64,000 nucleotides of DNA from the NCBI GenBank assembly GCA_029948255.1, contig JALIZF010001769.1:611001-675000 (forward strand). The letters run 5' to 3'. How positions within the stretch are numbered: the stretch's first letter is position 1; the number at the start of each line of letters is the position of its first letter. This DNA is from Telmatactis stephensoni. Lineage: Eukaryota > Cnidaria > Anthozoa > Actiniaria > Isophelliidae. Positions 19,400-56,969 of the stretch are shown here, piece after piece. The position numbers were made by a program, and so were the translations under genes. The notes beneath the pieces were generated by a model, which made no database searches, had not been told where the DNA came from, and was given only the letters and a program-made list of their open reading frames with translations.

Positions 19400-20654
19400 A
19401 AAACAACAAATACGTTACAACTTAGTCTTGAACGTAGTAGCGACAGCTGATAGTCAGCAAATAGAAACATCACCAATTTCTTCTTATGACCTCAAGGAGA
19501 GCCTTGCGCGCGCGATGGCCAAGTTACTAAAAATAGCCTTAGTCGCAACGAACATCGCACAGACATCAATACTGAGTTTTCCTCTCTTAGTATTATGGTC
19601 TCTTGACTAAGTTTTGTTGATGAGAAAGGGCTATTTGATATACAAAGCCGAATGATGCAGTTTGTTGTTATTCATATTGGAATATAAATTGTGATGCTTC
19701 AGGTAGAATTGTGTTTAATTTCTCATATTCTAGTCACATGAAAGCACGAAAACATTTTATTTATGTTTCGTCTCTGATTCAGATTCACCAACGTCGTCGT
19801 TGCGTCTCCCTCTAATAATATGTTTGTATTGTATTGTGAAAAAGTAAGACCAAGTATTGCAGACTGATTCTTTTTGAGGTGAAAAACTTTATTAATTCTA
19901 CATTGAAATGTTTTGTAACATAAAATAATACTAAGGAGCACGAGTACCCTGGTCACCAGGAGTTTTTGTTCGTTTTCTTTAGTGAGTCTGGCACCGCAAA
20001 CGAACCTCGGAACGAAACAACAAACCCCTGGAACCCAGGGTAGACTATTATTGTTATCGGTAATCATAAAATTACTACAAAATTGAATTCCGAAGAAGCT
20101 AAGTGTACAATAAAAATTAATAAATTCTATTTTAACACTTTAGACCTTTGTTAACTAATATATCTCAATTTATACGCTTTAATGAATCAAAAGCCACAAA
20201 TTGGACATTTAACAAATTCTAAGTTTTAAGTGAAAACAAAAGCATGTTTTTATATTTCCCGTGTTTGGCGTCATCAAAACTTCAAAACGTTTTAATGGAA
20301 ATGATATTCTAAAGAATAACCTTTTAAGTTGTGGTTACGATCGAAGGTCTGAAGTATTAAGAGGAGATTTTTTTCCCATGACGAGCAATAATAGCGAAAA
20401 GCACCAAAAACTAGACTTAATTCGTGCGAGTTTTAATCCAAATTTTCGTCCTGGATTAATACTCAAATCCTTTTTCTACCGGTTAAAAACTGAGATAAAA
20501 ACCATGCAAGATAAAATACCAGTCGAAAACGAACTTTTGAATTGTACAAATACTTTTTCTTTAAGTTGTTTGGGATTAAGCTTTTTCAAATAAAGCTGAA
20601 TAAAGCTAAAGAAACCATATAGCAAATGAGCAAATACCAAAAGCAAAAGCCTAA
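19400..20654. repeat. Segmental duplication unit S, copy 1, left part
   Basis: This stretch parallels 43,190-44,465 and, from about 19,580 on, 60,535-61,650. Shared landmarks include CTGGTCACCAGGAGTTTTTG, GGTAGACTATTATTGTTATC and TTCTACCGGTTAAAAACTGA. It is interrupted at 20,655 by the palindromic element and resumes at 35,494. No gene is supported: a 60-79-codon frame (19,428-19,610, also in copy 2) lacks an ATG. Confidence 0.8.
20649..20654. repeat. Left 6-bp target-site duplication GCCTAA
   Basis: GCCTAA immediately precedes the first base of the palindromic element and is repeated right after its last base. The S copy at about 61,648 has a single GCCTAAATCCTC at the same place. Confidence 0.85.
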
Positions 20655-20692
20655 AGTAGTTAAGTAGGGATGAAATTAACCCCTTTTTTTTT

Positions 20693-21010
20693 TAGGCGGA
20701 TACAGGCGGATATCAATGAATTTAGGCGGATACATGCGGATATCAATGAATTTAGGCGGATACAGGCGGATATCAATGAATTTAGGCGGATACAGGCGGA
20801 TATAAATGAATTTAGGCGGATACAGGCGGATATCAATGAATTTAGGCGGATACAGGCTGATATCAATGAATTTAGGTGGATACAGACGGATTGAGACGGA
20901 TACAGGAGGATTGAGACGGATACAGGTGGATTGAGACGGATACAGGAGGATTGAGACGGATACAGGTGGATTGAGACAGATTCACGACGATGGAGACGGA
21001 TATTCAGGAG
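20693..21010. repeat. Left terminal compound minisatellite (30-bp then 20-bp units)
   Basis: About six copies of a 30-bp unit (TTTAGGCGGATACAGGCGGA + TATCAATGAA) are followed by about six 20-bp units (TTGAGACGGATACAGGAGGA). Both share the core GGATACAGG. It lies just inside the element's terminus, next to a poly-T run. Confidence 0.95.
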
Positions 21011-21090
21011 GATTCAAGGAATATAAGAACAGCTAAGAAACACCTGACAACGGAATACTGACAACTGAATATTCTACAAAGAAAGACATA

Positions 21091-21564
21091 ATGAACAACT
21101 TTATTTGTTTCTGTGGAAATCCCGCCAAATCATTCAAAAACAAAAATGGTGCTACCTTCTTTACCTGTGGAACCAAAGTGGATTTTAACAAGTTGGGTCA
21201 GATTTACAAGATGAAAGTCGACGAGGGAAGAGACGAGGCCTTGAAGCAAGTGGACTTGGGATGCAACATGAGACTGAAGGAAAATGAGATTTCATTTATT
21301 CAGAACGAACTCAAAGAAACACCAGGACGACGAAACTTTCCAAAATGCCGACACGATCTAATCGCCAAGCTAGGAATCAGCTCTTCTGAAGCGAACAATG
21401 GGAGGTTATTTTATTCCTGTAACGTCAAATTTCCCGACCTACCATGTAAATTCTTTCATTGGTATGACGCACTACCACCAGTTCGTGTAGATTTTAAGAG
21501 AAGACAGGAAGAAGAAGAAGAGGAAAAAGCAAATCAGTCAAAGAAACTAAAGTTTTCTCGATGA
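21091..21564 (+). CDS. GRF-type zinc-finger protein, left-arm copy (157 aa)
   Basis: The ATG has A at -3 and the frame is uninterrupted to TGA. Residues 86-126 form a clear GRF finger: C86-x-H88, then NNGRLFYSC110, C119, and FFHWYD. An N-terminal half finger (C6-x-C8, GATFFTC26) lacks the last Cys and the FFxW block, so it may be degenerate. The C-terminus has an acidic run (six consecutive Glu) followed by the basic KKLKFSR, a possible nuclear signal. GRF fingers bind single-stranded DNA or RNA in APE2, TOP3A and NEIL3. A role in handling replication intermediates of the element is my inference. It is the outermost gene, about 80 bp from the minisatellite. AATAAA signals follow at about 21,690 and 21,730. 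The mirrored copy encodes the same 157 residues. Confidence 0.85.
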   Translation: MNNFICFCGNPAKSFKNKNGATFFTCGTKVDFNKLGQIYKMKVDEGRDEALKQVDLGCNMRLKENEISFIQNELKETPGRRNFPKCRHDLIAKLGISSSEANNGRLFYSCNVKFPDLPCKFFHWYDALPPVRVDFKRRQEEEEEEKANQSKKLKFSR

Positions 21565-22551
21565 GTTTATAAGAAAACTACAACGAATTTGTTCAACCCT
21601 AAAACACTTTCTACTTGATATCCTAGTTGTATTATATTACTTCTTTACTTTAATGAACAATTTAAGAAAACTACAACAAAGTTGTTCAACAATAAAACAC
21701 TTTCTAGCTTATATCCAAGTTGTATTATATTATTTCTTTACTCAATAAACAATTTAAAGCTTCACACAGTAAACCCTGAACGTACTATGGTTTCGAATTA
21801 GAGATATAAACAGTTTGGTTTTATCTAAAACAAGAAATATTATTGTAATAAACTTTAATAATAACATGGAGTTTATAGAAGTCAAAATCACTGTTGAATT
21901 AATCAACCCCATAAGGCAATGCTGAAACACGACTGAGTTAAGATATACATTAGTTAATTAGTGTGGAAAATGCAAAGACTCTCAGGTTAGAACTCAGAAA
22001 AAAAATTATGGCAAGTACAGTTAAAGTACAGTTATGAACAAGAAGACGGAGTTAAAAAACTGCAGTTAGCAAAAAAAAATTTTTTTCCGGAGCTCTAGGA
22101 CTAGATAATCTAAAAAGGCAAAAGCCCTTGGGGTAGGACTAAGCAAAAAACCCAAATTTCAAGATTACCTCAAATACGGGTGCGCCGAAGGAGGACAAGA
22201 AAATGGAGCAAAAATTGTTCGCAAAAAAGTATAACACTTTTAACAGATTACCTCGAACACAAATTAGCATGAATGGTACATGTAGCTTTTGTATCGTTTG
22301 GAATTAATTGATAATAACTTTGAATGCGTAGTCAGTACATAGTTTTACTTGACATGCAGTACAAAACCCGTGTGCTAGAACACGCAAGATGTTGATTTAA
22401 AGAAAAAAGGATTTTATTGCACAAATGAATGTTCCTAAACTGACAAAGAGCACGGTTTTGGTTTGGTTTTTAATGACAAGCATTATCTGCGGGACTAGCA
22501 AACAATTCTCCTGTATCCTCTACTAATTATGTAAAAACAGTGCTGGGACAC
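21565..22551. other. Left-arm intergenic region after the GRF gene
   Basis: A ~55-bp direct repeat (AACAATTTAAGAAAACTACAAC-like blocks at about 21,570-21,640 and 21,657-21,725) each ends near AATAAA/AACACTTTCTA, i.e. duplicated terminator-like sequence. No further gene recognised. Confidence 0.45.
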
Positions 22552-22875
22552 ATGCGATGGTTGACTTGGCTTCTTCTAGCTTTTGGCTCCTGTCATTTCC
22601 TTCTGTCATTGAACAACAGGGCCCACGCTCGTGTTCATTTGTATAAAATTGTGATTCGTATAATAATGATGAGCGCTACATTTTCCAAATATCACGAGCT
22701 TACTGCGCTCGTTGGTGGTTCACTTGCTTCTGTCATCAGTTCATTCATGATCACGTTCTGGTTTGTTTTGATTTCTACAATAATGTTTAAGAACATAGAT
22801 GCTACAATAGTGTTTTGCGTTTGTACAATGGATAATCCCTTCAGTATTAATGTCTTCAACAAAACATATAGTTAA
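22552..22875 (+). CDS. Small predicted membrane protein, left-arm copy (107 aa)
   Basis: Start chosen at the first ATG (22,552); a GTG four codons upstream also lies in frame. Residues 2-20 (RWLTWLLLAFGSCHFLLSL) look like a signal peptide or signal anchor. Residues ~52-78 (ALVGGSLASVISSFMITFWF and following) form a transmembrane helix. The tail is short and hydrophilic. The Kozak context is weak (C at -3). I recognise no family; it may be a small accessory membrane protein. The mirrored copy has one internal difference (an Arg/Met exchange in the NNxAHA segment). Existence as a real gene is less certain than its neighbours. Confidence 0.45.
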   Translation: MRWLTWLLLAFGSCHFLLSLNNRAHARVHLYKIVIRIIMMSATFSKYHELTALVGGSLASVISSFMITFWFVLISTIMFKNIDATIVFCVCTMDNPFSINVFNKTYS

Positions 22876-23178
22876 CTATGTACAAAACATCTATAGAGCT
22901 TCCTGCACTATGACACGATCTGTCCCAGGGTAATAGAAAAAAATCTAACTAGCCTCATAGCATAAAGTTTATTGTTATTACCAACAACAGGGCTTCTATC
23001 TTGATTCGTCATTTTTCGTACATCAGTTCAATCATGTCATGGGTTGAGGACTATAGAGGTCGAGGATGCATTCCTCCATCGTAGCTTGTAGTTTTTGAAT
23101 TTGGTATTGCTCAGTTGGAATATGTGTGGGATATGAATACATCCAGGTATAGTGAGAAACTTGATTGGATTAGTTTTT
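22876..23178. other. Left-arm intergenic region
   Basis: No gene. Immediately upstream of the secreted-protein frame there is a stop (TGA 23,134-23,136) and no ATG before the signal-peptide-like sequence. Confidence 0.4.
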
Positions 23179-23907
23179 ATGTTGCACTGCTGCATAGTTT
23201 ACTCCGGAAGAATATTCATAGCAGAGAGAAAAATTCCTGCATTTACTAATGGAGAGCACAACTTAACAGCAGTCGACGTTATAGGAAAAACGAGCATGGA
23301 TCGTTTGACCATCGTACGAAAACCAGCAGCTGAAGCCGCACCTTTAGGCCAATATGAAGTTCTCGAAACTAGTGAAATCTTTGCAGATCTAACTGAGGAC
23401 ATTGCTTCGGCGTATGCCCCTTACGTTCAGCAACAAAAATTGGATAAATGGCTGTGTGAATACGAATATCCACCATCTCTACCTACATTCGATGAATGTA
23501 TTCCTGAAATCCAGCCTGAAATTACAGCAAGACAAGACGAAATTGAGAACTTACTGATCCAAGCCCCACCCCACGTCGTGATCAATATTATCATGGATTT
23601 TGTAGACGAAACTGATTACGAGGGATGTAAAAATGACTATGTTTCTCAAAGAGATCATGACTGCTTCATGTTGGACAACGACCGAATAAGAGTGTATTAC
23701 TACCTGACACAAGCGTTGGAAAAGGTCGACGACGATATTGTCATGAGAGTGTTTTCAAAGCTGACAGAAACTCTTGAACCATGTTTGAATGGTCTTGAAC
23801 TTTTGATATACGACTGCAAAGACAGTAGACAAGAAATAGTTTCAAGAAAAAGAGAAAATCTGGAAACTCTCTTGATCAACAAACTGAACTCGCTTCACGA
23901 TATGTAA
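23179..23907 (+). CDS. Secreted-like protein of unknown function, left-arm copy
   Basis: The frame is open from 23,137 to the TAA before 23,908. Its in-frame residues RNLIGLVFMLHCCIVYSG read like a signal peptide, but the first codon of that stretch is GTG (23,152). The first ATG is at 23,179 (242 aa). A third candidate, ATG at 23,296 (A at -3, G at +4), would give 203 aa without a signal, and it is the start kept in the truncated copy at the element centre. Several Cys (DECIPE, CKNDY, DHDCF, EPCLN, YDCKD) suggest disulfides in a secreted domain. No family recognised. AATAAA follows at about 23,928. It lies between the membrane-protein and Fic genes, same direction. The mirror copy differs at a few residues near the C-terminus. 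Confidence 0.65.
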   Translation: MLHCCIVYSGRIFIAERKIPAFTNGEHNLTAVDVIGKTSMDRLTIVRKPAAEAAPLGQYEVLETSEIFADLTEDIASAYAPYVQQQKLDKWLCEYEYPPSLPTFDECIPEIQPEITARQDEIENLLIQAPPHVVINIIMDFVDETDYEGCKNDYVSQRDHDCFMLDNDRIRVYYYLTQALEKVDDDIVMRVFSKLTETLEPCLNGLELLIYDCKDSRQEIVSRKRENLETLLINKLNSLHDM

Positions 23908-25057
23908 TCTCGATCATACTTTTTCCACAATAAACGGATGTTTTAAATGGTATTTGTATATTTAAAGCTCATAGAAACTCTTAAAGTATGATTGATTGCA
24001 TAGACTTGAACCTTTAAGATACCAGCAATTGTAAGGATGCTAGACGTTAGGATGCAAACTAAATTAGCTTTCAGTTTTGACATGTAATCATATATTTTTC
24101 GCAGAAAATAAAGTATTTGTATGTTCTTATCATTGCTTGGTTTTCAGCATGTCCTGTTTATAAATGCACATTAACTCGTATTCGCGAGAAAAAAGATTGA
24201 TCTCTGAAAAACGAATACTCTACAGTACTAGTTCAGAAAAAAAAACATCTTACAGTTTTGCCAAAGAGACATTTTCCGTATGATTGGGTACGTGAAGACA
24301 GCAAGCATGACACGGTTACGGCAGAAATTGATTTGTACACACCTCGATACTGACAGTTATAGGACAGCGCGCTAAGTTTCACACCGTTACACAGAAACTG
24401 CTCTTATATCAGTACTAAGATGTACTCATTTTTTATACAAGTGATGGATACTACAAATCATACGTTTGTATACGACTAAGTATATTTTAACAACAGAACG
24501 ATCTGAAATGGGCAATCTAACATGAAACGTATGAATTACTTAGAATTTTTCGTTGTTCGCTATAACTAAACAGACGCACCATTCCTACTCAAAGCTGTTC
24601 ATCCCTGTAATTCCAATCTCACAGAACGTCGTCAGTGTTTTACTCAGATTATTCATTCTTCATCTACTGCTTTTACGACCCTTTTGTAACATTGTGCACG
24701 AAAAATATACAGAAACAAAGAAACAAAGGACCAGCAAGCGATGCCTGTTCCTGTCAATTATTAGTTTATTTCCGCAAGAGTAACTATAGTCGATATAGTT
24801 TGACGGAGTTAAAACAATTTTGCAAAGACTTCTAAGTGGACTACGCCATATACCTTGTCATCTACACAGGGTTTTACTGACATCAGTTTCTTCCTGACAG
24901 CTGCGAAATTTCTCATTCTGTAAAGGACAAGCAACAAACCGTTTTGAAGAACAGGATAGTAATTCCTTTTCTTTGCAAACTTTGTTTAGCTCTGATCATT
25001 TCTAAATTCTGCTCCGAACAACTAGAAACTGTCTATTGCACTTCGAGTGTTAACAAA
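23908..25057. other. Left-arm region between secreted-like and Fic genes
   Basis: Contains AATAAA at about 23,928 and 24,106. A 66-76-codon frame at 24,553-24,835 lacks a good start and is not called. About 24,700-24,890 is a diverged direct repeat of about 25,990-26,310, so the Fic gene is bracketed by repeats. CAGTTTCTTCCTGACAG at 24,884-24,900 resembles a splice acceptor in frame with the Fic ORF. Confidence 0.5.
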
Positions 25058-25912
25058 ATGAATTTCCAAAGTCGGTCAATGGAATGGATAGACGATTTTT
25101 TAAAACGGAACTCGTCAGAGACATTGAAACACAACAGCTGTGTGCAAGAGAAATTATTGGAAACGTATGTGTATCGTTCTTTGAAGCAAGAAAATTTAGG
25201 GGTGACAGATAAATATATGGTTGGAAAAATAATCCAAAACAAGGCTGTAGATGATGGAAGCTCGGACTTCAGAAACACTCTGGGTTTTATTGAAGCCTAT
25301 CACCACTTACACAAACTAAGCGGTGATCTCGATGGTGGATTATTAGAAAACAATCTCATATGTGAGGTTCATAAGATATTGATGAAATATCACAAAGACA
25401 TCCGCACAGCGGGAAAGTATAGTGTTCAAGACAGAATTGTGGAGTTTGAAGGAAGTATTCACTATTATTCCAGTCACTACCACATAGAAAGTGAAATGCA
25501 AGCACTGATTGACCAATACAATTCAAAATGGTCTACCATAAACCAAAACAGAGTGAAAGATGATGCAAAATCCTTGGAAGAATTGATAAGATTATTGACC
25601 TGGTTGGTGTACACATTTTTGAAAGTACATCCCTTTTTTGATGCAAATGGTAGAATGATTCGTTTACTTTATACTTACATCATGGAAGCGTATGGTTTTC
25701 CTTTTCAAGTTCCTTTACTTTGGTTCAACGAAAACGAACCATTTTCAAACTATAACCGCGAAGGAGAAGATTATCGTAAATGGTGTAAGCTTCTGTGGAA
25801 CGCAAGAGTTACAAAAGACTTGACTGTTTTGGAAAACGACCTGATTCGTAGCTTAAAATTGTATTGTCAAGATTATGAACGTTTTATAAAAGAGCATGCG
25901 ACCAACCATTGA
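25058..25912 (+). CDS. Fic-domain protein (putative AMPylase/NMP transferase), left-arm copy
   Basis: Fic enzymes transfer a nucleotide monophosphate, usually AMP, to target hydroxyls. The full active-site loop HPFFDANGRMIR is present (His229 to Arg240 in the longest frame): catalytic His, acidic Asp, Asn, Gly and both Arg; Ala replaces the usual Gly before Asn. The domain spans about residues 85-290, with GKYSV as the typical upstream Fic turn. I see no clear inhibitory [S/T]xxxE[G/N] helix, but cannot exclude one. The first ATG (25,058, A at -3) gives 284 aa. The frame stays open upstream to 24,881 and encodes a hydrophobic stretch (IVIPFLCKLCLALIIS) like a signal peptide, so a non-AUG start or upstream exon is possible. 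It ends at TGA; the mirror copy has a 2-bp difference near the end that extends it by 16 codons. Confidence 0.85.
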   Translation: MNFQSRSMEWIDDFLKRNSSETLKHNSCVQEKLLETYVYRSLKQENLGVTDKYMVGKIIQNKAVDDGSSDFRNTLGFIEAYHHLHKLSGDLDGGLLENNLICEVHKILMKYHKDIRTAGKYSVQDRIVEFEGSIHYYSSHYHIESEMQALIDQYNSKWSTINQNRVKDDAKSLEELIRLLTWLVYTFLKVHPFFDANGRMIRLLYTYIMEAYGFPFQVPLLWFNENEPFSNYNREGEDYRKWCKLLWNARVTKDLTVLENDLIRSLKLYCQDYERFIKEHATNH

Positions 25913-26358
25913 TAAACTGACTTTAACAAACGAACAGCACATGTATATAGCTAACTAGAATGCAGTCACTTTTGCTTATTTGTAATTTTTTTATGTTTTC
26001 TTAGTAAAACTGAAACGAAAGAAACAGAGGCAAGCGATGCCTATTCCTAACAATTATTTTTATTTCTGATAAAAATAACATCTATACAGTTTGACGGAGT
26101 AAAAACAAATTTTGCAATGATTTCTAATTGGACTGCGCCATATACTTTTAACATATATACATATATATATATGACAATGTACCTTTCATTTCTGATTAAT
26201 GATGACGTTAAAACACGAAATGACACCCACACTTTACTTTTTTTGGGCTCAAATGTACGATAGCTGGGGTAGTCGTCATCTACACTGGGTTTTACAAAAG
26301 TTACCTAATTTTTGTTGATCAAAAAAACTTATTACAAAGAGTTAGTGTTGATAAAACT
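25913..26358. other. Left-arm convergent intergenic region
   Basis: Separates the Fic gene (+) from the unknown gene (-). About 25,990-26,310 repeats the sequence preceding the Fic gene (shared GCAAGCGATGCCT, AGTTTGACGGAGT, GGACT-CGCCATATAC). Contains a short (AT)n run at about 26,153-26,172. Confidence 0.5.
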
Positions 26359-27165
26359 CTAATTGACAACTGAAGAAGGAAGTTTTTGAGTACAACGTGC
26401 ATGAAGAAGCAAGGCTTTTTTAGCATCGGGTTCAGGACTAGAAAACTTTTCTCCAGTTTCTTTAATTACATAATTAAACGACGTTTTACTTGAATTTAGT
26501 CGTACTACAGTACAGCCCGTGTTGGAATCAAAACAAACACTTTTCTTTGCCTTTTTCAAAGCCGAAAGCCAAGGAATGTTACACTGATTTTTGACGTTTG
26601 TAGTGATCAAATGAGCTAAAATCTTAGCAAGTTCATTGAAGTATAGTTTGTTATCACGACTGTGAAACAGAGCTCTGTTGCAAAGCTGCTTTTCTTCGTT
26701 CATCAAATGTATCATACCGTGGTATGGATCAATCTTGTACAAGTTTATGATGTAGCGTATCAGTGGAAATAAGATCTCATAGAAGCTAGGATCTTCAGGT
26801 TTAAGCTAATATTCTTCTTCAAGTATGATTTTAATGACATAAGCCATTTCTTGATGAGGGACTTGTGCTTGAACCCGTTTACGAATCAACATTCCAAGAA
26901 GCGTCCAGAAGTTGGTGGGGTCACTTAAAGATTCTCCATAGTTAGATAGCAGCATGTCGTTTTTTTTAAGTTGTTCGTATATTTCGTTTCTTCCTTGTTC
27001 TACACTGATGTGATAAAACAGAAAACGAAAAAAGGCAGTCATATCTTTCATCATCTTTTGAAAGGACCAATCTTTAGATTCATGGGACTTTGTCAAACAT
27101 TCAAAAATGTTGTGTATCGAGTTTTTTTCCTCTTCTTTCAGGATAAGCCCACTTCTCAATTCCAT
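26359..27165 (-). pseudogene. Unknown ~270-aa protein gene, left-arm copy, broken by a nonsense codon
   Basis: Counterpart of the intact frame at 28,989-29,801. A TAG at 26,806-26,808 replaces the CAG of EEEYQLKPED, splitting the frame. The rest stays open to the same natural stop. There is also a two-codon in-frame deletion (NEIYEQ versus NEKLIYEQ) and a few substitutions. It is transcribed outward, converging on the Fic gene. Confidence 0.85.
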
Positions 27166-27430
27166 ATTCAATTGATGATGTTGACTAAAAGCTTTCGTTG
27201 ATTGTAACAAATGATAATTTTTAAACAGCACCGGCGTTTTTAAGGTGGAAGATATAACCACGCCTATTGATCAATATCGGTTTTGTGATGTCACTTCCGT
27301 CCATCAAGTGTATCTGTCAAACTATTGAATTGTGATGTCAGTATAGTACCGCCTCCATTTTACTCTATATATGTAGGGATAAATGTATTGGGCATTGAAA
27401 AAAAAAAAATACACTACCCGTTTGAAGAAA

Positions 27431-27660
27431 ATGGATCGTTTAACTACCGTGCGAAAACTAGTTGATGAAGCCACACGGCTTATTATCACTATGGAGTTCT
27501 TGAAACAGGTGAAACCTTTACAGATCTAACTCATGACATTGCTTCGGCGTATTTCTATTATCTTAATCAACAAAAAATGGGGGAATGGTTGTGCGATCAA
27601 TCTCTATATACCTACATTTGAAGAATGTATTCCTGAAATCCAGCCTGAAATTACGCCAAG
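27431..27660 (+). pseudogene. Truncated second copy of the secreted-like gene near the palindrome centre
   Basis: It begins ATGGATCGTTTAACTACCGT, matching the internal MDRLTIVRKP start of the secreted-like gene. It follows that gene through the EECIPEIQPEIT-equivalent with indels and frameshifts, then stops. It is preceded by a TATA-like CTCTATATATG (about 27,363). Mirrored at 28,494-28,723. Confidence 0.75.
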
Positions 27661-27734
27661 ATCATAAAGTGGTTGTAGAAAATCGCGGATTGAATCAGAA
27701 TCAGAATCAGAATCCTGTGTCCCTTCAGTAGACA

Positions 27735-27945
27735 ATTTCTGGTTGCTGAACAGAATTTAGAAATGATCAGAGCTCAAACAAAGTTGACAAAGAAAGAGAA
27801 TTGCTATCCTGTTCTTCAAAAAGGTTTGTTGCTTGTCCTTAACATAATGACAGAGAAATTCGCACTAGTCGTCAGGAAGAAAATGTCAGTAAAACTCAGT
27901 GTCATTAAAATCATACTTGAAGAAGAATATCAGCTTAAACCACAG
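27735..27945. repeat. Rearranged fragments of the Fic upstream region and the unknown gene
   Basis: 27,738-27,897 is the reverse complement of the Fic leader region (about 24,870-25,020; e.g. GAACAGGATAG and GGACAAGCAACAAACC, inverted). It joins directly to about 40 bp of the unknown gene (GTCATTAAAATCATACTTGA...CAGCTTAAACC, as at 29,321-29,360). An 86-codon frame across the joins is an accident of fusion. Mirrored on the other side of the loop. Confidence 0.75.
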
Positions 27946-28063
27946 GTAGCCCAATCTTTGATCGAAATATTCAAATTTAGAAATGTATCGAAAATAAAAT
28001 ACACATCTTTTGCCTTATTTTAGTGTCCTATTGCATTCTTTGTGGTTTTGGATGGTTTGGTTG

Positions 28064-28090
28064 ACAAATTGCTAAAATCGCCTTAAAATG
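28064..28090. other. 27-nt central loop of the palindrome
   Basis: The only strictly single-copy bases of the element. They lie between GGTTTGGTTG (left arm end, 28,063) and CAACCAAACC (right arm start, 28,091). Confidence 0.9.
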
Positions 28091-28493
28091 CAACCAAACC
28101 ATCCAAAACCACAAAGAATGCAATAGGACACTAAAATAAGGCAAAAGATGTGTATTTTATTTTCGATACATTTCTAAATTTGAATATTTCGATCAAAGAT
28201 TGGGCTACCTGTGGTTTAAGCTGATATTCTTCTTCAAGTATGATTTTAATGACACTGAGTTTTACTGACATTTTCTTCCTGACGACTAGTGCGAATTTCT
28301 CTGTCATTATGTTAAGGACAAGCAACAAACCTTTTTGAAGAACAGGATAGCAATTCTCTTTCTTTGTCAACTTTGTTTGAGCTCTGATCATTTCTAAATT
28401 CTGTTCAGCAACCAGAAATTGTCTACTGAAGGGACACAGGATTCTGATTCTGATTCTGATTCAATCCGCGATTTTCTACAACCACTTTATGAT

Positions 28494-28723
28494 CTTGGCG
28501 TAATTTCAGGCTGGATTTCAGGAATACATTCTTCAAATGTAGGTATATAGAGATTGATCGCACAACCATTCCCCCATTTTTTGTTGATTAAGATAATAGA
28601 AATACGCCGAAGCAATGTCATGAGTTAGATCTGTAAAGGTTTCACCTGTTTCAAGAACTCCATAGTGATAATAAGCCGTGTGGCTTCATCAACTAGTTTT
28701 CGCACGGTAGTTAAACGATCCAT
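28494..28723 (-). pseudogene. Mirror copy of the truncated secreted-like fragment
   Basis: Right-arm counterpart of 27,431-27,660, with the same defects. It lies head-to-head with the unknown gene, whose 5' flank starts beyond it. Confidence 0.75.
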
Positions 28724-28769
28724 TTTCTTCAAACGGGTAGTGTATTTTTTTTTTTTCAATGCCCAATAC

Positions 28770-28988
28770 ATTTATCCCTACATATATAGAGTAAAATGGA
28801 GGCGGTACTATACTGACATCACAATTCAATAGTTTGACAGATACACTTGATGGACGGAAGTGACATCACAAAACCGATATTGATCAATAGGCGTGGTTAT
28901 ATCTTCCACCTTAAAAACGCCGGTGCTGTTTAAAAATTATCATTTGTTACAATCAACGAAAGCTTTTAGTCAACATCATCAATTGAAT
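28770..28988 (+). promoter_or_regulatory. Putative promoter of the unknown gene, right arm
   Basis: A TATA-like CATATATAGAG at about 28,780 lies about 200 bp before the ATG, between the truncated secreted-like fragment and the unknown gene. Assignment rests on the motif and position only. Confidence 0.3.
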
Positions 28989-29801
28989 ATGGAATTGAGA
29001 AGTGGGCTTATCCTGAAAGAAGAGGAAAAAAACTCGATACACAACATTTTTGAATGTTTGACAAAGTCCCATGAATCTAAAGATTGGTCCTTTCAAAAGA
29101 TGATGAAAGATATGACTGCCTTTTTTCGTTTTCTGTTTTATCACATCAGTGTAGAACAAGGAAGAAACGAAAAATTAATATACGAACAACTTAAAAAAAA
29201 CGACATGCTGCTATCTAACTATGGAGAATCTTTAAGTGACCCCACCAACTTCTGGACGCTTCTTGGAATGTTGATTCGTGAACGGGTTCAAGCACAAGTC
29301 CCTCATCAAGAAATGGCTTATGTCATTAAAATCATACTTGAAGAAGAATATCAGCTTAAACCTGAAGATCCTAGCTTCTATGAGATCTTATTTCCACTGA
29401 TACGCTACATCATAAACTTGTACAAGATTGATCCATACCACGGTATGATACATTTGATGAACGAAGAAAAGCAGCTTTGCAACAGAGCTCTGTTTCACAG
29501 TCGTGATAACAAACTATACCTCAATGAACTTGCTAAGCTTTTAGCTCATTTGATCACTACAAACGTCAAAAATCAGTGTAACATTCCTTGGCTTTCGGCT
29601 TTGAAAAAGGCAAAGAAAAGTGTTTGTTTTGATTCCAACACGGGCTGTACTGTAGTACGACTAAATTCAAGTAAAACGTCGTTTAATTATGTAATTAAAG
29701 AAACTGGAGAAAAGTTTTCTAGTCCTGAACCCGATGCTAAAAAAGCATTGCTTCTTCATGCACGTTGTACTCAAAAACTTCCTTCTTCAGTTGTCAATTA
29801 G
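28989..29801 (+). CDS. Unknown ~270-aa protein, intact right-arm copy
   Basis: Start chosen at ATG 28,989 (A at -3, G at +4); the frame is also open upstream to a GTG at 28,893. The protein is mainly helical in appearance, with charged N-terminal helices (SIHNIFECLTKSHESKDW), a middle EEEYQLKPEDPSFYEILFPL and a C-terminal segment with TGCTVVRLNSSKTSFNY. There is no signal peptide, zinc motif or membrane segment, and I recognise no family. It is the only gene transcribed away from the palindrome centre, and its left-arm twin is inactivated, so this copy supplies any function. One or two proteins of a larger ancestral element could be represented here. Confidence 0.65.
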   Translation: MELRSGLILKEEEKNSIHNIFECLTKSHESKDWSFQKMMKDMTAFFRFLFYHISVEQGRNEKLIYEQLKKNDMLLSNYGESLSDPTNFWTLLGMLIRERVQAQVPHQEMAYVIKIILEEEYQLKPEDPSFYEILFPLIRYIINLYKIDPYHGMIHLMNEEKQLCNRALFHSRDNKLYLNELAKLLAHLITTNVKNQCNIPWLSALKKAKKSVCFDSNTGCTVVRLNSSKTSFNYVIKETGEKFSSPEPDAKKALLLHARCTQKLPSSVVN

Positions 29802-30192
29802 AGTTTTATCAACACTAACTCTTTGTAATAAGTTTTTTTTTTTGATCAACAAAAATTACGTAACTTTTGTAAAACCCAGTATAGATGACGACTACCCCAG
29901 CTATCGTACATTTGAGCCCCCCAAAAAGTAAAGTATGGGTGTCATTTCGTGTTTTAACGTCATCATTAATCAGAAATGAAAGGTACATTGTCATATATAT
30001 ATGTTAAAAGTATATGGCGCAGTCCAATTAGAAATTATTGCAAAATTTGTTTTTACTCCGTCAAACTGTATAGATGTTATTTTTATCAGAAATAAAAATA
30101 ATTGTTAGGAATAGGCATCGCTTGCCTTTGTTTCTTTCGTTTTTTACTGAGAAAACATAAAAAAATTACAAATAAGCAAAAGTGATTGCATT
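29802..30192. other. Right-arm convergent intergenic region
   Basis: Mirror of 25,913-26,358, including the repeat block that brackets the Fic gene. Confidence 0.5.
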
Positions 30193-31095
30193 CTAGTTAG
30201 CTATATACATGTGCTGCTCGTTTGTTAAAGTCAGTTTATCAATATGGTTGGTCGCATGCTCTTTTATAAAACGTTCATAATCTTGACAATACAATTTTAA
30301 GCTACGAATCAGGTCGTTTTCCAAAACAGTCAAGTCTTTTGTAACTCTTGCGTTCCACAGAAGCTTACACCATTTACGATAATCTTCTCCTTCGCGGTTA
30401 TAGTTTGAAAATGGTTCGTTTTCGTTGAACCAAAGTAAAGGAACTTGAAAAGGAAAACCATACGCTTCCATGATGTAAGTATAAAGTAAACGAATCATTC
30501 TACCATTTGCATCAAAAAAGGGATGTACTTTCAAAAATGTGTACACCAACCAGGTCAATAATCTTATCAATTCTTCCAAGGATTTTGCATCATCTTTCAC
30601 TCTGTTTTGGTTTATGGTAGACCATTTTGAATTGTATTGGTCAATCAGTGCTTGCATTTCACTTTCTATGTGGTAGTGACTGGAATAATAGTGAATACTT
30701 CCTTCAAACTCCACAATTCTGTCTTGAACACTATACTTTCCCGCTGTGCGGATGTCTTTGTGATATTTCATCAATATCTTATGAACCTCACATATGAGAT
30801 TGTTTTCTAATAATCCACCATCGAGATCACCGCTTAGTTTGTGTAAGTGGTGATAGGCTTCAATAAAACCCAGAGTGTTTCTGAAGTCCGAGCTTCCATC
30901 ATCTACAGCCTTGTTTTGGATTATTTTTCCAACCATATATTTATCTGTCACCCCTAAATTTTCTTGCTTCAAAGAACGATACACATACGTTTCCAATAAT
31001 TTCTCTTGCACACAGCTGTTGTGTTTCAATGTCTCTGACGAGTTCCGTTTTAAAAAATCGTCTATCCATTCCATTGACCGACTTTGGAAATTCAT
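30193..31095 (-). CDS. Fic-domain protein, right-arm copy
   Basis: Mirror of the left-arm Fic gene with the same HPFFDANGRMIR loop and the same residues through the shared part. ATG at 31,093-31,095. A 2-bp insertion after the ...ATNH equivalent shifts past the left-arm stop, adding 16 codons (...LTNEQHMYIAN). Which C-terminus is ancestral is unclear. As on the left, the frame is open upstream of the ATG with a hydrophobic leader and no AUG. Confidence 0.85.
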   Translation of the reverse strand: MNFQSRSMEWIDDFLKRNSSETLKHNSCVQEKLLETYVYRSLKQENLGVTDKYMVGKIIQNKAVDDGSSDFRNTLGFIEAYHHLHKLSGDLDGGLLENNLICEVHKILMKYHKDIRTAGKYSVQDRIVEFEGSIHYYSSHYHIESEMQALIDQYNSKWSTINQNRVKDDAKSLEELIRLLTWLVYTFLKVHPFFDANGRMIRLLYTYIMEAYGFPFQVPLLWFNENEPFSNYNREGEDYRKWCKLLWNARVTKDLTVLENDLIRSLKLYCQDYERFIKEHATNHIDKLTLTNEQHMYIAN

Positions 31096-32243
31096 TTTGT
31101 TAACACTCGAAGTGCAATAGACAGTTTCTAGTTGTTCGGAGCAGAATTTAGAAATGATCAGAGCTAAACAAAGTTTGCAAAGAAAAGGAATTACTATCCT
31201 GTTCTTCAAAACGGTTTGTTGCTTGTCCTTTACAGAATGAGAAATTTCGCAGCTGTCAGGAAGAAACTGATGTCAGTAAAACCCTGTGTAGATGACAAGG
31301 TATATGGCGTAGTCCACTTAGAAGTCTTTGCAAAATTGTTTTAACTCCGTCAAACTATATCGACTATAGTTACTCTTGCGGAAATAAACTAATAATTGAC
31401 AGGAACAGGCATCGCTTGCTGGTCCTTTGTTTCTTTGTTTCTGTATATTTTTCGTGCACAATGTTACAAAAGGGTCGTAAAAGCAGTAGATGAAGAATGA
31501 ATAATCTGAGTAAAACACTGACGACGTTCTGTGAGATTGGAATTACAGGGATGAACAGCTTTGAGTAGGAATGGTCCGTCTGTTTAGTTATAGTGAACAA
31601 TGAAAAATTCTAAGTAATCCATGCGTTTCATGTTAGATTGCCCATTTCAGATCGTTCTGTTGTTAAAATATACTTAGTCGTATACAAACGTATGATTTGT
31701 AGAATCCATCACTTGTATAAAAAATGAGTACATCTTAGTACTGATATAAGAGCAGTTTCTGTATAACGGTGTGAAACTTAGCGCGCTGTCCTATAACTGT
31801 CAGTATCGAGGTGTGTACAAATCAATTTCTGCCGTAACCGTGTCATGCTTGCTGTCTTCACGTACCCAATCATACGGAAAATGTCTCTTTGGCAAAACTG
31901 TAAGATTGTTTTTCTGAACTAGTACTGTAGAGTATTCGTTTTTCAGAGATCAATCATTTTTTCTCGCGAATACGAGTTAATGTGCATTTATAAACAGGGC
32001 ATGCTGAAAACCAAGCAATGATAAACACATACAAATACTTTATTTTCTGCGAAAAATATATGATTACATGTCAAAACTGAAAGCTAATTTAGTTTGCATC
32101 CTGACGTCTAGCATCCTTACAATTGCTGGGATCTTAAAGGTTCAAGACTATGCAATCAATCATACTTTAAGGGTTTCTATGAGCTTTAAATATACAAATA
32201 CCATTTAAAACATCCGTTTATTGTAGAAAAAGTATGATCGAGA
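31096..32243. other. Right-arm region between Fic and secreted-like genes
   Basis: Mirror of 23,908-25,057 with small differences (for example ATAACG versus TTACAC near 31,763). Confidence 0.5.
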
Positions 32244-32972
32244 TTACGTGTCGTGAAGCAAGGTCAGTTTGTTGATCAAGAGAGTTTCCAGATTTTCTCT
32301 TTTTCTTGAAACTATTTCTTGTCTACTGTCTTTGCAGTCGTATCTCAAAAGTTCAAGACCATTCAAACATGGTTCAAGAGTTTCTGTCAGCTTTGAAAAC
32401 ACTCTCATGACAATATCGTCGTCGACCTTTTCCAACGCTTGTGTCAGGTAGTAATACACTCTTATTCGGTCGTTGTCCAACATGAAGCAGTCATGATCTC
32501 TTTGAGAAACATAGTCATTTTTACATCCCTCGTAATCAGTTTCGTCTACAAAATCCATGATAATATTGATCACGACGTGGGGTGGGGCTTGGATCAGTAA
32601 GTTCTCAATTTCGTCTTGTCTTGCTGTAATTTCAGGCTGGATTTCAGGAATACATTCATCGAATGTAGGTAGAGATGGTGGATATTCGTATTCACACAGC
32701 CATTTATCCAATTTTTGTTGCTGAACGTAAGGGGCATACGCCGAAGCAATGTCCTCAGTTAGATCTGCAAAGATTTCACTAGTTTCGAGAACTTCATATT
32801 GGCCTAAAGGTGCGGCTTCAGCTGCTGGTTTTCGTACGATGGTCAAACGATCCATGCTCGTTTTTCCTATAACGTCGACTGCTGTTAAGTTGTGCTCTCC
32901 ATTAGTAAATGCAGGAATTTTTCTCTCTGCTATGAATATTCTTCCGGAGTAAACTATGCAGCAGTGCAACAT
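32244..32972 (-). CDS. Secreted-like protein, right-arm copy
   Basis: Mirror of the left-arm gene, start at ATG 32,970-32,972 with the same signal-peptide-like upstream extension beginning at GTG. Differences cluster at the C-terminus (LLRYDCKD versus LLIYDCKD; LTLLHDT versus LNSLHDM). All Cys residues are kept. Confidence 0.65.
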   Translation of the reverse strand: MLHCCIVYSGRIFIAERKIPAFTNGEHNLTAVDVIGKTSMDRLTIVRKPAAEAAPLGQYEVLETSEIFADLTEDIASAYAPYVQQQKLDKWLCEYEYPPSLPTFDECIPEIQPEITARQDEIENLLIQAPPHVVINIIMDFVDETDYEGCKNDYVSQRDHDCFMLDNDRIRVYYYLTQALEKVDDDIVMRVFSKLTETLEPCLNGLELLRYDCKDSRQEIVSRKRENLETLLINKLTLLHDT

Positions 32973-33275
32973 AAAAACTAATCCAATCAAGTTTCTCACT
33001 ATACCTGGATGTATTCATATCCCACACATATTCCAACTGAGCAATACCAAATTCAAAAACTACAAGCTACGATGGAGGAATGCATCCTCGACCTCTATAG
33101 TCCTCAACCCATGACATGATTGAACTGATGTACGAAAAATGACGAATCAAGATAGAAGCCCTGTTGTTGGTAATAACAATAAACTTTATGCTATGAGGCT
33201 AGTTAGATTTTTTTCTATTACCCTGGGACAGATCGTGTCATAGTGCAGGAAGCTCTATAGATGTTTTGTACATAG

Positions 33276-33599
33276 TTAACTATATGTTTTGTTGAAGACA
33301 TTAATACTGAAGGGATTATCCATTGTACAAACGCAAAACACTATTGTAGCATCTATGTTCTTAAACATTATTGTAGAAATCAAAACAAACCAGAACGTGA
33401 TCATGAATGAACTGATGACAGAAGCAAGTGAACCACCAACGAGCGCAGTAAGCTCGTGATATTTGGAAAATGTAGCGCTCATCATTATTATACGAATCAC
33501 AATTTTATACAAATGAACACGAGCGTGGGCCATGTTGTTCAATGACAGAAGGAAATGACAGGAGCCAAAAGCTAGAAGAAGCCAAGTCAACCATCGCAT
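33276..33599 (-). CDS. Small predicted membrane protein, right-arm copy
   Basis: Mirror of 22,552-22,875, with the same signal-anchor and transmembrane segments and a Met for Arg change after LSLNN. Function unknown. Confidence 0.45.
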   Translation of the reverse strand: MRWLTWLLLAFGSCHFLLSLNNMAHARVHLYKIVIRIIMMSATFSKYHELTALVGGSLASVISSFMITFWFVLISTIMFKNIDATIVFCVCTMDNPFSINVFNKTYS

Positions 33600-34587
33600 G
33601 TGTCCCGGCACTGTTTTTACATAATTAGTAGAGGATACAGGAGAATTGTTTGCTAGTCCCGCAGATAATGCTTGTCATTAAAAACCCAACCAAAACCGTG
33701 CTCTTTGTCAGTTTAGGAACATTCATTTGTGCAATAAAATCCTTTTTTCTTTAAATCAACATCTTGCGTGTTCTAGCACACGGGTTTTGTACTGCATGTC
33801 AAGTAAAACTATGTACTGACTACGCATTCAAAGTTATTATCAATTAATTCCAAACGATACAAAAGCTACATGTACCATTCATGCTAATTTGTGTTCGAGT
33901 TAATCTGTTAAAAGTGTTATACTTTTTTGCGAACAATTTTTGCTCCATTTTCTTGTCCTCCTTCGGCGCACCCGTATTTGAGGTAATCTTGAAATTTGGG
34001 TTTTTTGCTTAGTCCTACCCCAAGGGCTTTTGCCTTTTTAGATTATCTAGTCCTAGAGCTCCGGAAAAAAATTTTTTTTTGCTAACTGCAGTTTTTTAAC
34101 TCCGTCTTCTTGTTCATAACTGTACTTTAACTGTACTTGCCATAATTTTTTTTTCTGAGTTCTAACCTGAGAGTTTTTGCATTTTCCACACTAATTAACT
34201 AATGTATATCTTAACTCAGTCGTGTTTCAGCATTGCCTTATGGGGTTGATTAATTCAACAGTGATTTTGACTTCTATAAACTCCATGTTATTATTAAAGT
34301 TTATTACAATAATATTTCTTGTTTTAGATAAAACCAAACTGTTTATATCTCTAATTCGAAACCATAGTACGTTCAGGGTTTACTGTGTGAAGCTTTAAAT
34401 TGTTTATTGAGTAAAGAAATAATATAATACAACTTGGATATAAGCTAGAAAGTGTTTTATTGTTGAACAACTTTGTTGTAGTTTTCTTAAATTGTTCATT
34501 AAAGTAAAGAAGTAATATAATACAACTAGGATATCAAGTAGAAAGTGTTTTAGGGTTGAACAAATTCGTTGTAGTTTTCTTATAAAC
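33600..34587. other. Right-arm intergenic region
   Basis: Mirror of 21,565-22,551; no additional gene. Confidence 0.45.
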
Positions 34588-35061
34588 TCATCGAGAAAAC
34601 TTTAGTTTCTTTGACTGATTTGCTTTTTCCTCTTCTTCTTCTTCCTGTCTTCTCTTAAAATCTACACGAACTGGTGGTAGTGCGTCATACCAATGAAAGA
34701 ATTTACATGGTAGGTCGGGAAATTTGACGTTACAGGAATAAAATAACCTCCCATTGTTCGCTTCAGAAGAGCTGATTCCTAGCTTGGCGATTAGATCGTG
34801 TCGGCATTTTGGAAAGTTTCGTCGTCCTGGTGTTTCTTTGAGTTCGTTCTGAATAAATGAAATCTCATTTTCCTTCAGTCTCATGTTGCATCCCAAGTCC
34901 ACTTGCTTCAAGGCCTCGTCTCTTCCCTCGTCGACTTTCATCTTGTAAATCTGACCCAACTTGTTAAAATCCACTTTGGTTCCACAGGTAAAGAAGGTAG
35001 CACCATTTTTGTTTTTGAATGATTTGGCGGGATTTCCACAGAAACAAATAAAGTTGTTCAT
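34588..35061 (-). CDS. GRF-type zinc-finger protein, right-arm copy
   Basis: Mirror of the left-arm gene with an identical predicted 157-residue product, including the C-x-H...C...C finger and the acidic/basic tail. Complete protein identity, while other arm genes differ, could reflect constraint, gene conversion or chance. Confidence 0.85.
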   Translation of the reverse strand: MNNFICFCGNPAKSFKNKNGATFFTCGTKVDFNKLGQIYKMKVDEGRDEALKQVDLGCNMRLKENEISFIQNELKETPGRRNFPKCRHDLIAKLGISSSEANNGRLFYSCNVKFPDLPCKFFHWYDALPPVRVDFKRRQEEEEEEKANQSKKLKFSR

Positions 35062-35139
35062 TATGTCTTTCTTTGTAGAATATTCAGTTGTCAGTATTCC
35101 GTTGTCAGGTGTTTCTTAGCTGTTCTTATATTCCTAGAA

Positions 35140-35456
35140 TCCTCCTGAATCCGTCTCAATCGTCGTGAATCTGTCTCAATCCACCTGTATCCGTCTCAAT
35201 CCTCCTGTATCCGTCTCAATCCACCTGTATCCGTCTCAATCCTCCTGTATCCGTCTCAATCCGTCTGTATCCACCTAAATTCATTGATATCAGCCTGTAT
35301 CCGCCTAAATTCATTGATATCCGCCTGTATCCGCCTAAATTCATTTATATCCGCCTGTATCCGCCTAAATTCATTGATATCCGCCTGTATCCGCCTAAAT
35401 TCATTGATATCCGCATGTATCCGCCTAAATTCATTGATATCCGCCTGTATCCGCCT
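35140..35456. repeat. Right terminal compound minisatellite
   Basis: Reverse-complement counterpart of the left array: 20-bp units near the GRF gene, 30-bp units near the terminus. Copy order differs slightly from the left side. Confidence 0.95.
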
Positions 35457-35493
35457 AAAAAAAAGGGGTTAATTTCATCCCTACTTAACTACT

Positions 35494-35499
35494 GCCTAA
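35494..35499. repeat. Right 6-bp target-site duplication GCCTAA
   Basis: Follows the last element base and continues into AATCCTCATTTTCG, the sequence that follows directly in the other S copies. Confidence 0.85.
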
Positions 35500-37891: not shown

Positions 37892-40123
37892 TCACTGCCA
37901 CACGTGTACACGCTCGCCATTTCGTTCTAACACTAACACTTTACCGTCTGTAGTAACAACTACATTACTGGGCCTATCCATTTGACCAAGACCTGAACCA
38001 TGGCTACCAAAAGATCCTAAAAATTGGCTCTCTTGGGTCCAAATTTGAACACGATGATTCCTACCGTCACAGACGAGTAACTTGTTCCCTCCAGAAACGG
38101 CAAGTCCTCTTAAAAAATCAATCTCACCGTCTTCTTCTCCATTGTCGCCAAATTTGTTCAGTAAATTACCACTGACATCATAAACATCAACAAAGTACTT
38201 GCTGAAATATGTTACAAAGTACTTGCCACTGCCATAAGCAATGTACCACGGTGTTTTGTCTGCAGTTGGAATTTCTTGAACGACATCTCCAGATTCTTTA
38301 CTCAGTAACTTTATACCTGACTTGGTTTCATCATCAAGGTGCATACAGCACACTGCGATGTGATCTTCGGTAACACACAATTCACGTAGTATCACTCGTT
38401 CTTGTCTGTAGATAGTTCTAATGTAAGCACCGTCCATGTCAAACTCTTGAATCCTACCACACTTAAAATCTGGATTATCTGAGACAAGAACATGGTTTCC
38501 ATACATGACTACTCCCCATGGACAGTCTAGTTGACCATCTCCGCCCTCTCCACATCTACTAAACTGACGTATATAGTTCCCATCAGCACTGAATACCACA
38601 ATGCGATGATTCAAAATATCAGTAATGATTACTTCTCCATTGACATTTACTGCTAGTGAACAGGGAACATTCAACTTTACCTCTCCATCTCCCATTTCTC
38701 CCAAGTATTTTACTGGTTTTAAGTCGATCTTACCATGGAGTGTCTTTGGAGAATCTTTGACATCTTGTCCTCCAATACTCACCAGAACTTGGTACGACGA
38801 ATACGATTTCTTTGCTTTATACGTCACGATAAATTTTCCACGTTCACTTTCAGTCAGTTGGCTTTCAACTTCACAACCATCATCATCTTTGATTTGTACA
38901 TCAATAGAACAAGGATTGGTGTAGCAAACTTTGTCCTTTGAATCTCTTGTTACGATTTCACATTTCCTGAGCGAGCCGCTACTATGAATGTTACTCGGTA
39001 GTTCAACCACTGAAGTGTTAGATGGGTCGGTCGTGCTCTCTTCAATCCTTCCAAAGTCGTGCGAGGATTGCGTGGCAGGAGTGTACTGGATGGTTGTATT
39101 TATCTTAAGAGATTGTGATTTCAAAATAGATCGTCGAGGATTTTCCAATAATTCTCGACATCTTTGAGGAAACTGACTTCCAATAATAAAATAAGGAACA
39201 TTTTGATCTTGCAAAGCTTTGCCCTGGTCATTCAGTGCATTGAGTTGTTCAATGGCAGCAGTAATCTCTCGTTGCTCTTCATCGTTTGCTTTTGTGAACA
39301 AAATACGCTTTTTGTCCAAGGTGTCATTCATGGCGTTTTGATGAGCTTGCATTTGTTCATTCATTTCTTTCTTTGCTGTGTTGATTTCATCCTCCAAGCG
39401 TCGTACGTTTTGCTTGGATAGTTCTAGTTCTTGTAGGAATTTCTGTTTCTGTTTGTTGATTCGATCCAAGTCTTGTTGAATTGATCCTTTAATATCCTCA
39501 GCTTTCTCCTTAATGCTGATCTTTTCGTGATTACTATGTTTGGTATTCGAGCAGATTTGGCAAATGGGTTTCAGACATGTGTGGCAGTAATACTGGAGCT
39601 TGTGTTTTTCGTGGAAGTTTTCAGGACATCGTTGCTGACTGGTAATGTAGGCGTTGACATGTTCTTTCCTAAAGTCACCAAACAAAGTCACTTGATGTTC
39701 CTCTCTGAGTTGTTTAACTGTATTGTGGGCGTTCTTGCAGTCAGCGCAAACCATGCCTTCGCACTCAGAACAGAAGGCAACTAAAGTAACGTGTTTTTCG
39801 CAGGAAACACAGTTCGGTAGGTCTAGCTTGTCTTGTTCACTTGCTTTGTTTTTCATTGCAATTAGCAGTTCTTTCAAGGATTCGAGATGGAACGAAGATT
39901 TGAGCTTTGTTATGTCACCATCTTCTAACTCTAGTGGTGCTTTACAAGTAGGACAAATAAATCGCTGCCCTCGGCTCCTGCAAGATTCCTTCCATTCCTT
40001 GATACAATTAAAGCACAAGCTGTGAAGACACGGCAGCGTCTTGGGCTCGTTAAAGATGTCATGGCATATTACACACGTAAGTTCTTCTTCTAATCTTGAA
40101 ACCAAATCATTGAGTTCAGCCAT
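37892..40123 (-). CDS. TRIM-NHL protein, intact (743 aa), probable E3 ubiquitin ligase
   Basis: Single uninterrupted exon from ATG 40,123. RING C3HC4 at residues 17-60: C17-x2-C20, C32-x-H34, C37-x2-C40, C57-x2-C60. B-box 1 about 102-148 (CVSCEK...CADCKNAH). B-box 2 about 166-204 (CPENFHEKH...CQICSNTKHSNH). Coiled coil about 205-310. Filamin-type Ig domain about 386-465. NHL beta-propeller about 468-743, ending ERVHVWQ. This is the class VII TRIM layout (TRIM2/3/71 group), cytosolic RING ligases whose NHL propeller binds protein or RNA targets. Exact orthology cannot be assigned, and such genes are often expanded in cnidarians. The upstream 2.2 kb is duplicated with the gene. No TATA was identified. 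Confidence 0.93.
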   Translation of the reverse strand: MAELNDLVSRLEEELTCVICHDIFNEPKTLPCLHSLCFNCIKEWKESCRSRGQRFICPTCKAPLELEDGDITKLKSSFHLESLKELLIAMKNKASEQDKLDLPNCVSCEKHVTLVAFCSECEGMVCADCKNAHNTVKQLREEHQVTLFGDFRKEHVNAYITSQQRCPENFHEKHKLQYYCHTCLKPICQICSNTKHSNHEKISIKEKAEDIKGSIQQDLDRINKQKQKFLQELELSKQNVRRLEDEINTAKKEMNEQMQAHQNAMNDTLDKKRILFTKANDEEQREITAAIEQLNALNDQGKALQDQNVPYFIIGSQFPQRCRELLENPRRSILKSQSLKINTTIQYTPATQSSHDFGRIEESTTDPSNTSVVELPSNIHSSGSLRKCEIVTRDSKDKVCYTNPCSIDVQIKDDDGCEVESQLTESERGKFIVTYKAKKSYSSYQVLVSIGGQDVKDSPKTLHGKIDLKPVKYLGEMGDGEVKLNVPCSLAVNVNGEVIITDILNHRIVVFSADGNYIRQFSRCGEGGDGQLDCPWGVVMYGNHVLVSDNPDFKCGRIQEFDMDGAYIRTIYRQERVILRELCVTEDHIAVCCMHLDDETKSGIKLLSKESGDVVQEIPTADKTPWYIAYGSGKYFVTYFSKYFVDVYDVSGNLLNKFGDNGEEDGEIDFLRGLAVSGGNKLLVCDGRNHRVQIWTQESQFLGSFGSHGSGLGQMDRPSNVVVTTDGKVLVLERNGERVHVWQ

Positions 40124-56965: not shown

Positions 56966-56969
56966 ACCA

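Follow-up and report, generated by a model that had tools for sequence, protein, structure and literature searches.

This work concerns a palindromic element of the sea anemone Telmatactis stephensoni, located at positions 20655-35493 of a 64,000-nucleotide (nt) stretch of DNA, hereafter the window, which is part of contig C195 in a 483.5-Mb assembly of 1,782 contigs (C-numbers designate contigs of that assembly). As assembled and resolved by self-alignment, the element is an inverted repeat with a left arm of 7,409 nt on the forward strand (20655-28063), starting with AGTAGT, and a right arm of 7,403 nt on the reverse strand (28091-35493), with ACTACT at its end, on either side of a 27-nt loop (28064-28090). 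Copies of the hexamer GCCTAA, which we regard as a target-site duplication, adjoin it at 20649-20654 on the left and 35494-35499 on the right. Two mirrored arms of about 7.4 kb, a 27-nt loop and GCCTAA on both sides are what the original prediction for this DNA had described, and they are confirmed here. Read inward, both ends of the palindrome give AGTAGTTAAGTAGGGATG. The alignment of the left with the right arm comprises 7,424 columns, with 43 mismatches and 36 gap columns that correspond to 11 indel events, and the length and identity of the arms exclude a palindrome arisen by chance.

From the outer end inward, each arm holds a subterminal minisatellite (20691-21014 on the left, +, with units of 30 and 20 nt; 35138-35459 on the right, -, from a repeat scan), followed by five open reading frames (ORFs). 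The first encodes a GRF zinc-finger protein of 157 amino acids (aa), found at 21091-21564 (+), where it matches Pfam PF06839 with 29.3 bits (cut-off 25.9), and at 34588-35061 (-), from the ORF and genome matches. It is followed by a 107-aa ORF (22552-22875, +; 33276-33599, -, from the ORF list), membrane-like by eye, and by the gene of a 242-aa protein, p242 (23179-23907, +; 32244-32972, -, both from ORFs). The Fic gene encodes 284 aa in the left arm (25058-25912, +, from the ORF list) and 300 aa in the right arm (30193-31095, -), where it matches PF02661 with 51.9 bits (cut-off 24). The innermost gene, p270, is open over 270 aa in the right arm (28989-29801, +) and broken into two ORFs in the left arm (26359-27165, -), and the arms are therefore unequal in gene content. 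Thus, of the gene set that had been predicted for each arm, GRF, the 107-aa protein, p242 and Fic are indeed present in both, but the 270-aa frame is not intact on the left. Inward of p270, the left arm also contains at its inner end a p242-like remnant (27427-27661, +) that is 75% identical in nucleotide sequence to the C715 p242 gene.

When the five arm ORFs were run on Pfam, only GRF and Fic scored above the cut-off; the 107-aa and 242-aa proteins had no family at E 1, and the sole match of the 270-aa protein was far under the cut-off. Pfam also missed the capsid-like ORFs of relatives that are described below. None of these five ORFs was identified as an integrase, and no search aimed at integrase was made. 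In the genome, p270 has 51 matches, both arms counted. Protein databases contained two relatives of p270 and 11 of Fic, too few for naming a donor, while a search of IMG/VR with a p270 pattern matched one stretch, and none was confirmed. Fic found only matches of unknown function in PHROGs and, by sequence, a single PDB entry, the bacterial-type Fic protein 3cuc; the corresponding search with p270 returned no PDB entry.

Pairwise ratios of nonsynonymous to synonymous divergence (dN/dS) between copies of GRF, Fic, p270 and p242 were 0.15-0.36 at dS below 1.3, with three exceptions that have few changes behind each, namely GRF of C291 versus C119 (0.59), Fic of C195 versus C291 (0.93), and p242 of the left versus the right arm (1.06). 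The remaining GRF values were 0.05-0.21 at dS above 2, where divergence is saturated; seven comparisons gave no value, dS not being computable, and neither did the two identical Fic arms. Judged from these coding sequences, the four genes appear to have been under constraint in the lineage that multiplied.

Insertion site and Maverick-type relatives

The sequences outside the palindrome (500 nt on each side) are not mirrored, their best local match in mirror orientation being 19 nt long. The window contains two more copies of the flanking host DNA, near 61.65 kb and 44.46 kb, to which the flanks could be aligned. The first copy contains no insertion and a single GCCTAA (61651-61656, from the flank alignment); in the second the site is likewise unoccupied, with a small deletion of a few bases. 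The duplicated target, the unlike flanks and the empty paralogous site thus show that the palindrome was inserted as one unit.

These data also bear on the possibility that the structure is a fold-back artefact of assembly or sequencing. Fold-back reads are reported as a known artefact (PMC12870357), and the palindrome described below that opens contig C1311 may be one. However, such an artefact is expected to have mirrored flanks and identical arms, whereas here the unmirrored flanks match both sides of the empty site, the 6-bp target occurs twice and 43 mismatches distinguish the arms; moreover, a second palindrome on C134 has its own duplication. We therefore regard an artefact as extremely improbable.

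Vertebrate Mavericks are recognised, in the account of one study, by (AGT)2//(ACT)2 or (AG)3//(CT)3 ends and perfect 6-bp duplications (PMC8097293). The C195 palindrome has both the (AGT)2//(ACT)2 ends and the duplication in common with Mavericks, also named Polintons, to which the adintoviruses are related, and relatives of its arm genes lie near the polymerase gene pPolB in this genome; it differs from them in being palindromic except for 27 nt, in keeping one end twice, and in lying on a contig without a pPolB match.

The terminal 941 nt of the element have 57 matches in the genome; in three other BLAST comparisons, matches shorter than 60, 100 or 150 nt, respectively, were left out. Termini of the form AGTAGT...ACTACT, a motif that comes from vertebrate Mavericks, are found in the insertions on C195, C134, C402 and C330, while the one on C538 has AGTAGT on one side and AGAGTT at its right end. 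All five separate insertions with both ends in the stretches examined are bordered by 6-bp duplications, identified by eye in the end sequences: GCCTAA on C195, TTTGTA on C134, CCCCTT on C402, AGCAAG on C538 and GACTTC on C330. Within those stretches, C912/C120, C6, C726, C291, C812 and C119 have one end or none. The insertion on C473 is that of C538 in a second assembly copy and was counted once; C56/C1022, C538/C473, C912/C120 and C306/C855 are probable assembly-copy pairs of one place. The original prediction had proposed Maverick-like insertion traits, and had named the absence of any other genomic copy with the same termini and 6-bp duplications as evidence to the contrary. The (AGT)2 ends, the duplication and the empty paralogous site agree with its proposal, and four other insertions of this type were found.

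The pPolB family PF03175 has 88 matches genome-wide and none on the C195 contig, and the palindrome is therefore a derivative and not a complete Maverick. Relatives of its arm genes are found near pPolB on other contigs. The order on C306 is p270 (-), a p242 relative (+, 72% identity over 202 columns), an adjoining ATPase-like ORF and other ORFs, and pPolB matches are located 6-12 kb past p270; in the arm of the window, p270 is likewise succeeded by the p242-like stretch, where the arm breaks off. We take ORFs of C306 and C538 to be ATPase-like, and others of C538 to be capsid-like, on the basis of familiar motifs, nothing being above the Pfam cut-off. On C199, C770 and C1078, GRF and Fic are separated from each other by about 1.1 kb and from pPolB by 11-18 kb. 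Of the 79 contigs that bear Fic, nine have a pPolB match, which is less than 20 kb from Fic on seven and far apart on C151 and C204.

The lack of a Pfam family for p242, p270 and the 107-aa protein, and of a pPolB match in the palindrome, would fit an undescribed family unrelated to Mavericks whose ends are similar by chance. Such a family is hardly credible in view of the ends, the length of the duplication, and the relatives of p270, p242, GRF and Fic near pPolB or an ATPase-like ORF.

A linear, non-palindromic relative is found on C291. There, the arm end continues into 26 of the 27 nt of the loop, one of them mismatched, after which different sequence follows. The loop is therefore ordinary element sequence, and it is there that the palindrome turned back.

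Inverted loci elsewhere in the genome

A second palindrome is located at C134:483509-497446, with arms of about 6.78 kb, a 362-nt loop and the 6-bp duplication given above. Its arms show 34 mismatches over 6,480 aligned positions and five indel events; 33 of the 34 mismatches fall within 483623-483753, a repeat-rich stretch near the end, and the inner 290 nt are identical. This palindrome, which is no copy of that on C195, carries relatives of the C195 GRF and Fic (54% over 124 and 49% over 247 columns, respectively), with Fic in the opposite orientation in the arm. A Fic gene on C467 is 100% identical to that of C134. The insertion on C195 is real, and the genome contains at least one independent second case, that of C134.

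Other inverted arrangements were observed. The inverted arms of C715 show no mismatch over all 2,602 nt compared, a length set by the stretch examined, and enclose a spacer of 4,493 nt. In this spacer lies an ORF, leucine-rich-repeat and membrane-like by eye (C715:8766-9554), which is perhaps captured host sequence, and relatives of p270 (~33%) form an inverted pair at C715:2752-3447 and 13251-13946 that shares its centre with the arms. A wide inverted pair of p270 relatives (~33%) is present at C203:446049-446762 and 472241-472939, with one Fic only. GRF has 40 matches, with inverted pairs at C195, C134 and C402. On C402 it lies within 1.7-kb inverted ends (98%) that have an A32-type ATPase between them (23.3 bits, cut-off 22.8). 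An inner inverted pair on C402 was rejected as a palindrome, since it encloses about 3 kb resembling a separate insertion; this stretch (C402:122572-125643), with inverted ends of 594 nt, lies within a Maverick-like element. A pPolB-bearing palindrome at C1311:1-5414 (2.6-kb arms, 169-nt loop) was set aside because it starts at base 1 of its contig and may be a contig-end artefact.

With the window Fic as query, 131 matches were obtained and merged into 116 places, of which 60 are in inverted pairs, those of C195, C134 and C715 among them, and 56 are unpaired. Neighbouring Fic genes less than 10 kb apart form 34 pairs (27 convergent, 4 divergent and 3 tandem); one of the divergent pairs is situated between two palindromes that are neighbours on C513, and the C969 pair consists of fragments. 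For the convergent pairs the binomial value is 4e-11, which is overstated since the copies are related and the assembly duplicates not independent. The C134 Fic as query gave 145 matches, including 18 full convergent pairs that form one group (73-74% identity to the query), in which 32 of the 36 gene copies, counted by hand, have no internal stop. Convergent pairs, mostly stop-free, have their genes about 1-2.7 kb apart, as at C204:598698-601550, and two of them adjoin on C513 (250771-253433 and 255201-257863). The sole pair inspected, on C513, has arms that are 100% complementary over the 431 nt compared and a minisatellite-rich spacer of 735 nt. A divergent inverted pair with 91% identity to the C134 Fic and 8.7 kb between its genes (C56:1112744-1122506, also C1022:33566-43229) is perhaps C134-like with a long centre.

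Such pairs could stem from an established palindromic satellite lineage, in which the mirror form is inherited and multiplies with the help of Mavericks, Fic being retained cargo. The convergence of close pairs (27/34), the inverted pairing of 60 of the 116 places, the largely stop-free group of 18 and the complementary arms of C513 all speak for such a lineage. However, that group is tied to Mavericks through Fic alone, the binomial value is inflated as said above, and separate origins are favoured by C195, C134 and C715, whose palindromes or inverted arms are unlike one another in gene order and in loop or spacer. We thus hold an inherited mirror form to be unlikely as the explanation of the C195 element. 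Palindromic carriers of Fic may nonetheless have been amplified, the pairs being known here from their Fic genes and not from their ends.

Origin of the mirror forms

We favour, with a probability of roughly two in three, the reading that the C195 element is an integrated mirror-image deletion derivative of one Maverick/Polinton end, made by fold-back in replication and inserted by enzymes acting in trans. This reading is based on the palindrome, the 6-bp duplication, the empty site, the Maverick-type ends, the relatives of arm genes near pPolB and the continuation of the loop in C291. The inverted dimer of one element end that had been predicted is supported by the arm-gene relatives close to pPolB or next to an ATPase-like ORF, and by C291, which runs through arm end and loop. 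One terminal segment, comprising the end, the minisatellite, GRF, the 107-aa protein, p242, Fic and p270, would have been kept twice in opposite orientation, with loss of the remainder. In the course of strand-displacing, probably protein-primed copying, a strand would have turned back on itself at a distance of about 7.4 kb from the end, and its copying would have yielded a head-to-head molecule. Both outer ends of that molecule would be true termini, on which the polymerase and integrase of a complete Maverick could act for replication and integration. The same process would have taken place separately at least once more, in C134. Insertion with 6-bp duplications suggests that an integrase acted in trans. 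A fold-back origin is likely, help in trans is probable, and amplification as a satellite class is possible.

Linear protein-primed replicons such as yeast linear plasmids and adenoviruses have palindromic derivatives, in which head-to-head duplication of one end provides two functional termini; our literature search found no source for these. The C195 element likewise has one end duplicated in head-to-head orientation and retains both outer ends intact, as does that of C134; it differs from those derivatives, which are free or viral DNA, in being chromosomal with a 6-bp duplication. Panhandle or racquet intermediates are among those proposed for invertron plasmids (PMC1864894), and the truncated bacterial linear plasmid of another report (PMC2652032) is not a close parallel. 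Very long inverted ends with tandem repeats are also common to Foldback transposons and Mutator-like elements with long terminal inverted repeats. Those elements have other duplication lengths and other ends, whereas the C195 arms carry Maverick-associated genes. No palindromic, fold-back or Fic-bearing Polinton was evident in the literature at the level of titles and abstracts, most subscription journals being outside the search.

Several points weigh against a fold-back derivative of a Maverick. No priming microhomology was recognised by which fold-back could be distinguished from hairpin-ended repair or template switching. In C195, the 43 differences between the arms occur in clusters (p=0.008 for the longest clean run; 0 of 20,000 shuffles for the three longest); the arms therefore did not simply diverge from identity, and arm-to-arm conversion, or two templates, must be considered. 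C291 is devoid of about 0.48 kb of arm immediately before the loop, and its sequence after the loop is of unassigned identity. Besides, pPolB, GRF and Fic were joined by contig coordinates, no pPolB-bearing element being traced end to end, and C199, C770 and C1078 are possibly copies of one locus. Finally, a terminal protein, replication and mobilisation are parts of a model built from sequence alone.

Host repair or template switching could also have duplicated the element end, either on free element DNA or after integration, with no involvement of element replication. Fold-back inversions and template switching at forks are reported for host chromosomes, and the clustered arm differences are compatible with arm-to-arm conversion. 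However, duplication after integration would not set a second element end beside an exact 6-bp target copy, and at C195 both ends and both GCCTAA are present while the paralogous site is empty; C134 likewise has both ends and a duplication. We consider this origin very unlikely.

The recurrence of similar mirror forms in one genome suggests that they are by-products or satellites of Maverick replication. Going further, and with the odds leaning against it, one may tentatively envisage a class of palindromic Maverick satellites, present in tens of copies, with two copies of each gene, above all of Fic, and two genuine ends, whose copying and insertion would depend on a helper; Fic would then act for the satellite or for the host, against the helper or with it. 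The self-copying of Mavericks is largely deduced from their polymerase gene. A linear replicon that begins copying at its ends and displaces a strand would be expected to leave mirror derivatives behind, and those of the nearly unmutated C134 type could thus allow that model to be tested on chromosomal sequence. If the inverted Fic pairs turn out to be of this kind, Mavericks would be accompanied by satellites that carry an enzyme-like cargo as they spread. Elements of this type may go unnoticed elsewhere, given the instability of large palindromes and the difficulty of assembling them.

Host sequence around the insertion

The host locus is repeated in the window near 19.8, 43.6 and 60.8 kb, and it is the copies of this locus that gave the empty sites. 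It includes two similar B-box/NHL genes, at 37892-40123 and 48067-50097; Pfam, run on the first, identified a RING finger in it as well. Long minisatellites also occur beyond the palindrome, at 10279-11480 and 56961-58249, with 47-nt and 93/131-nt units.

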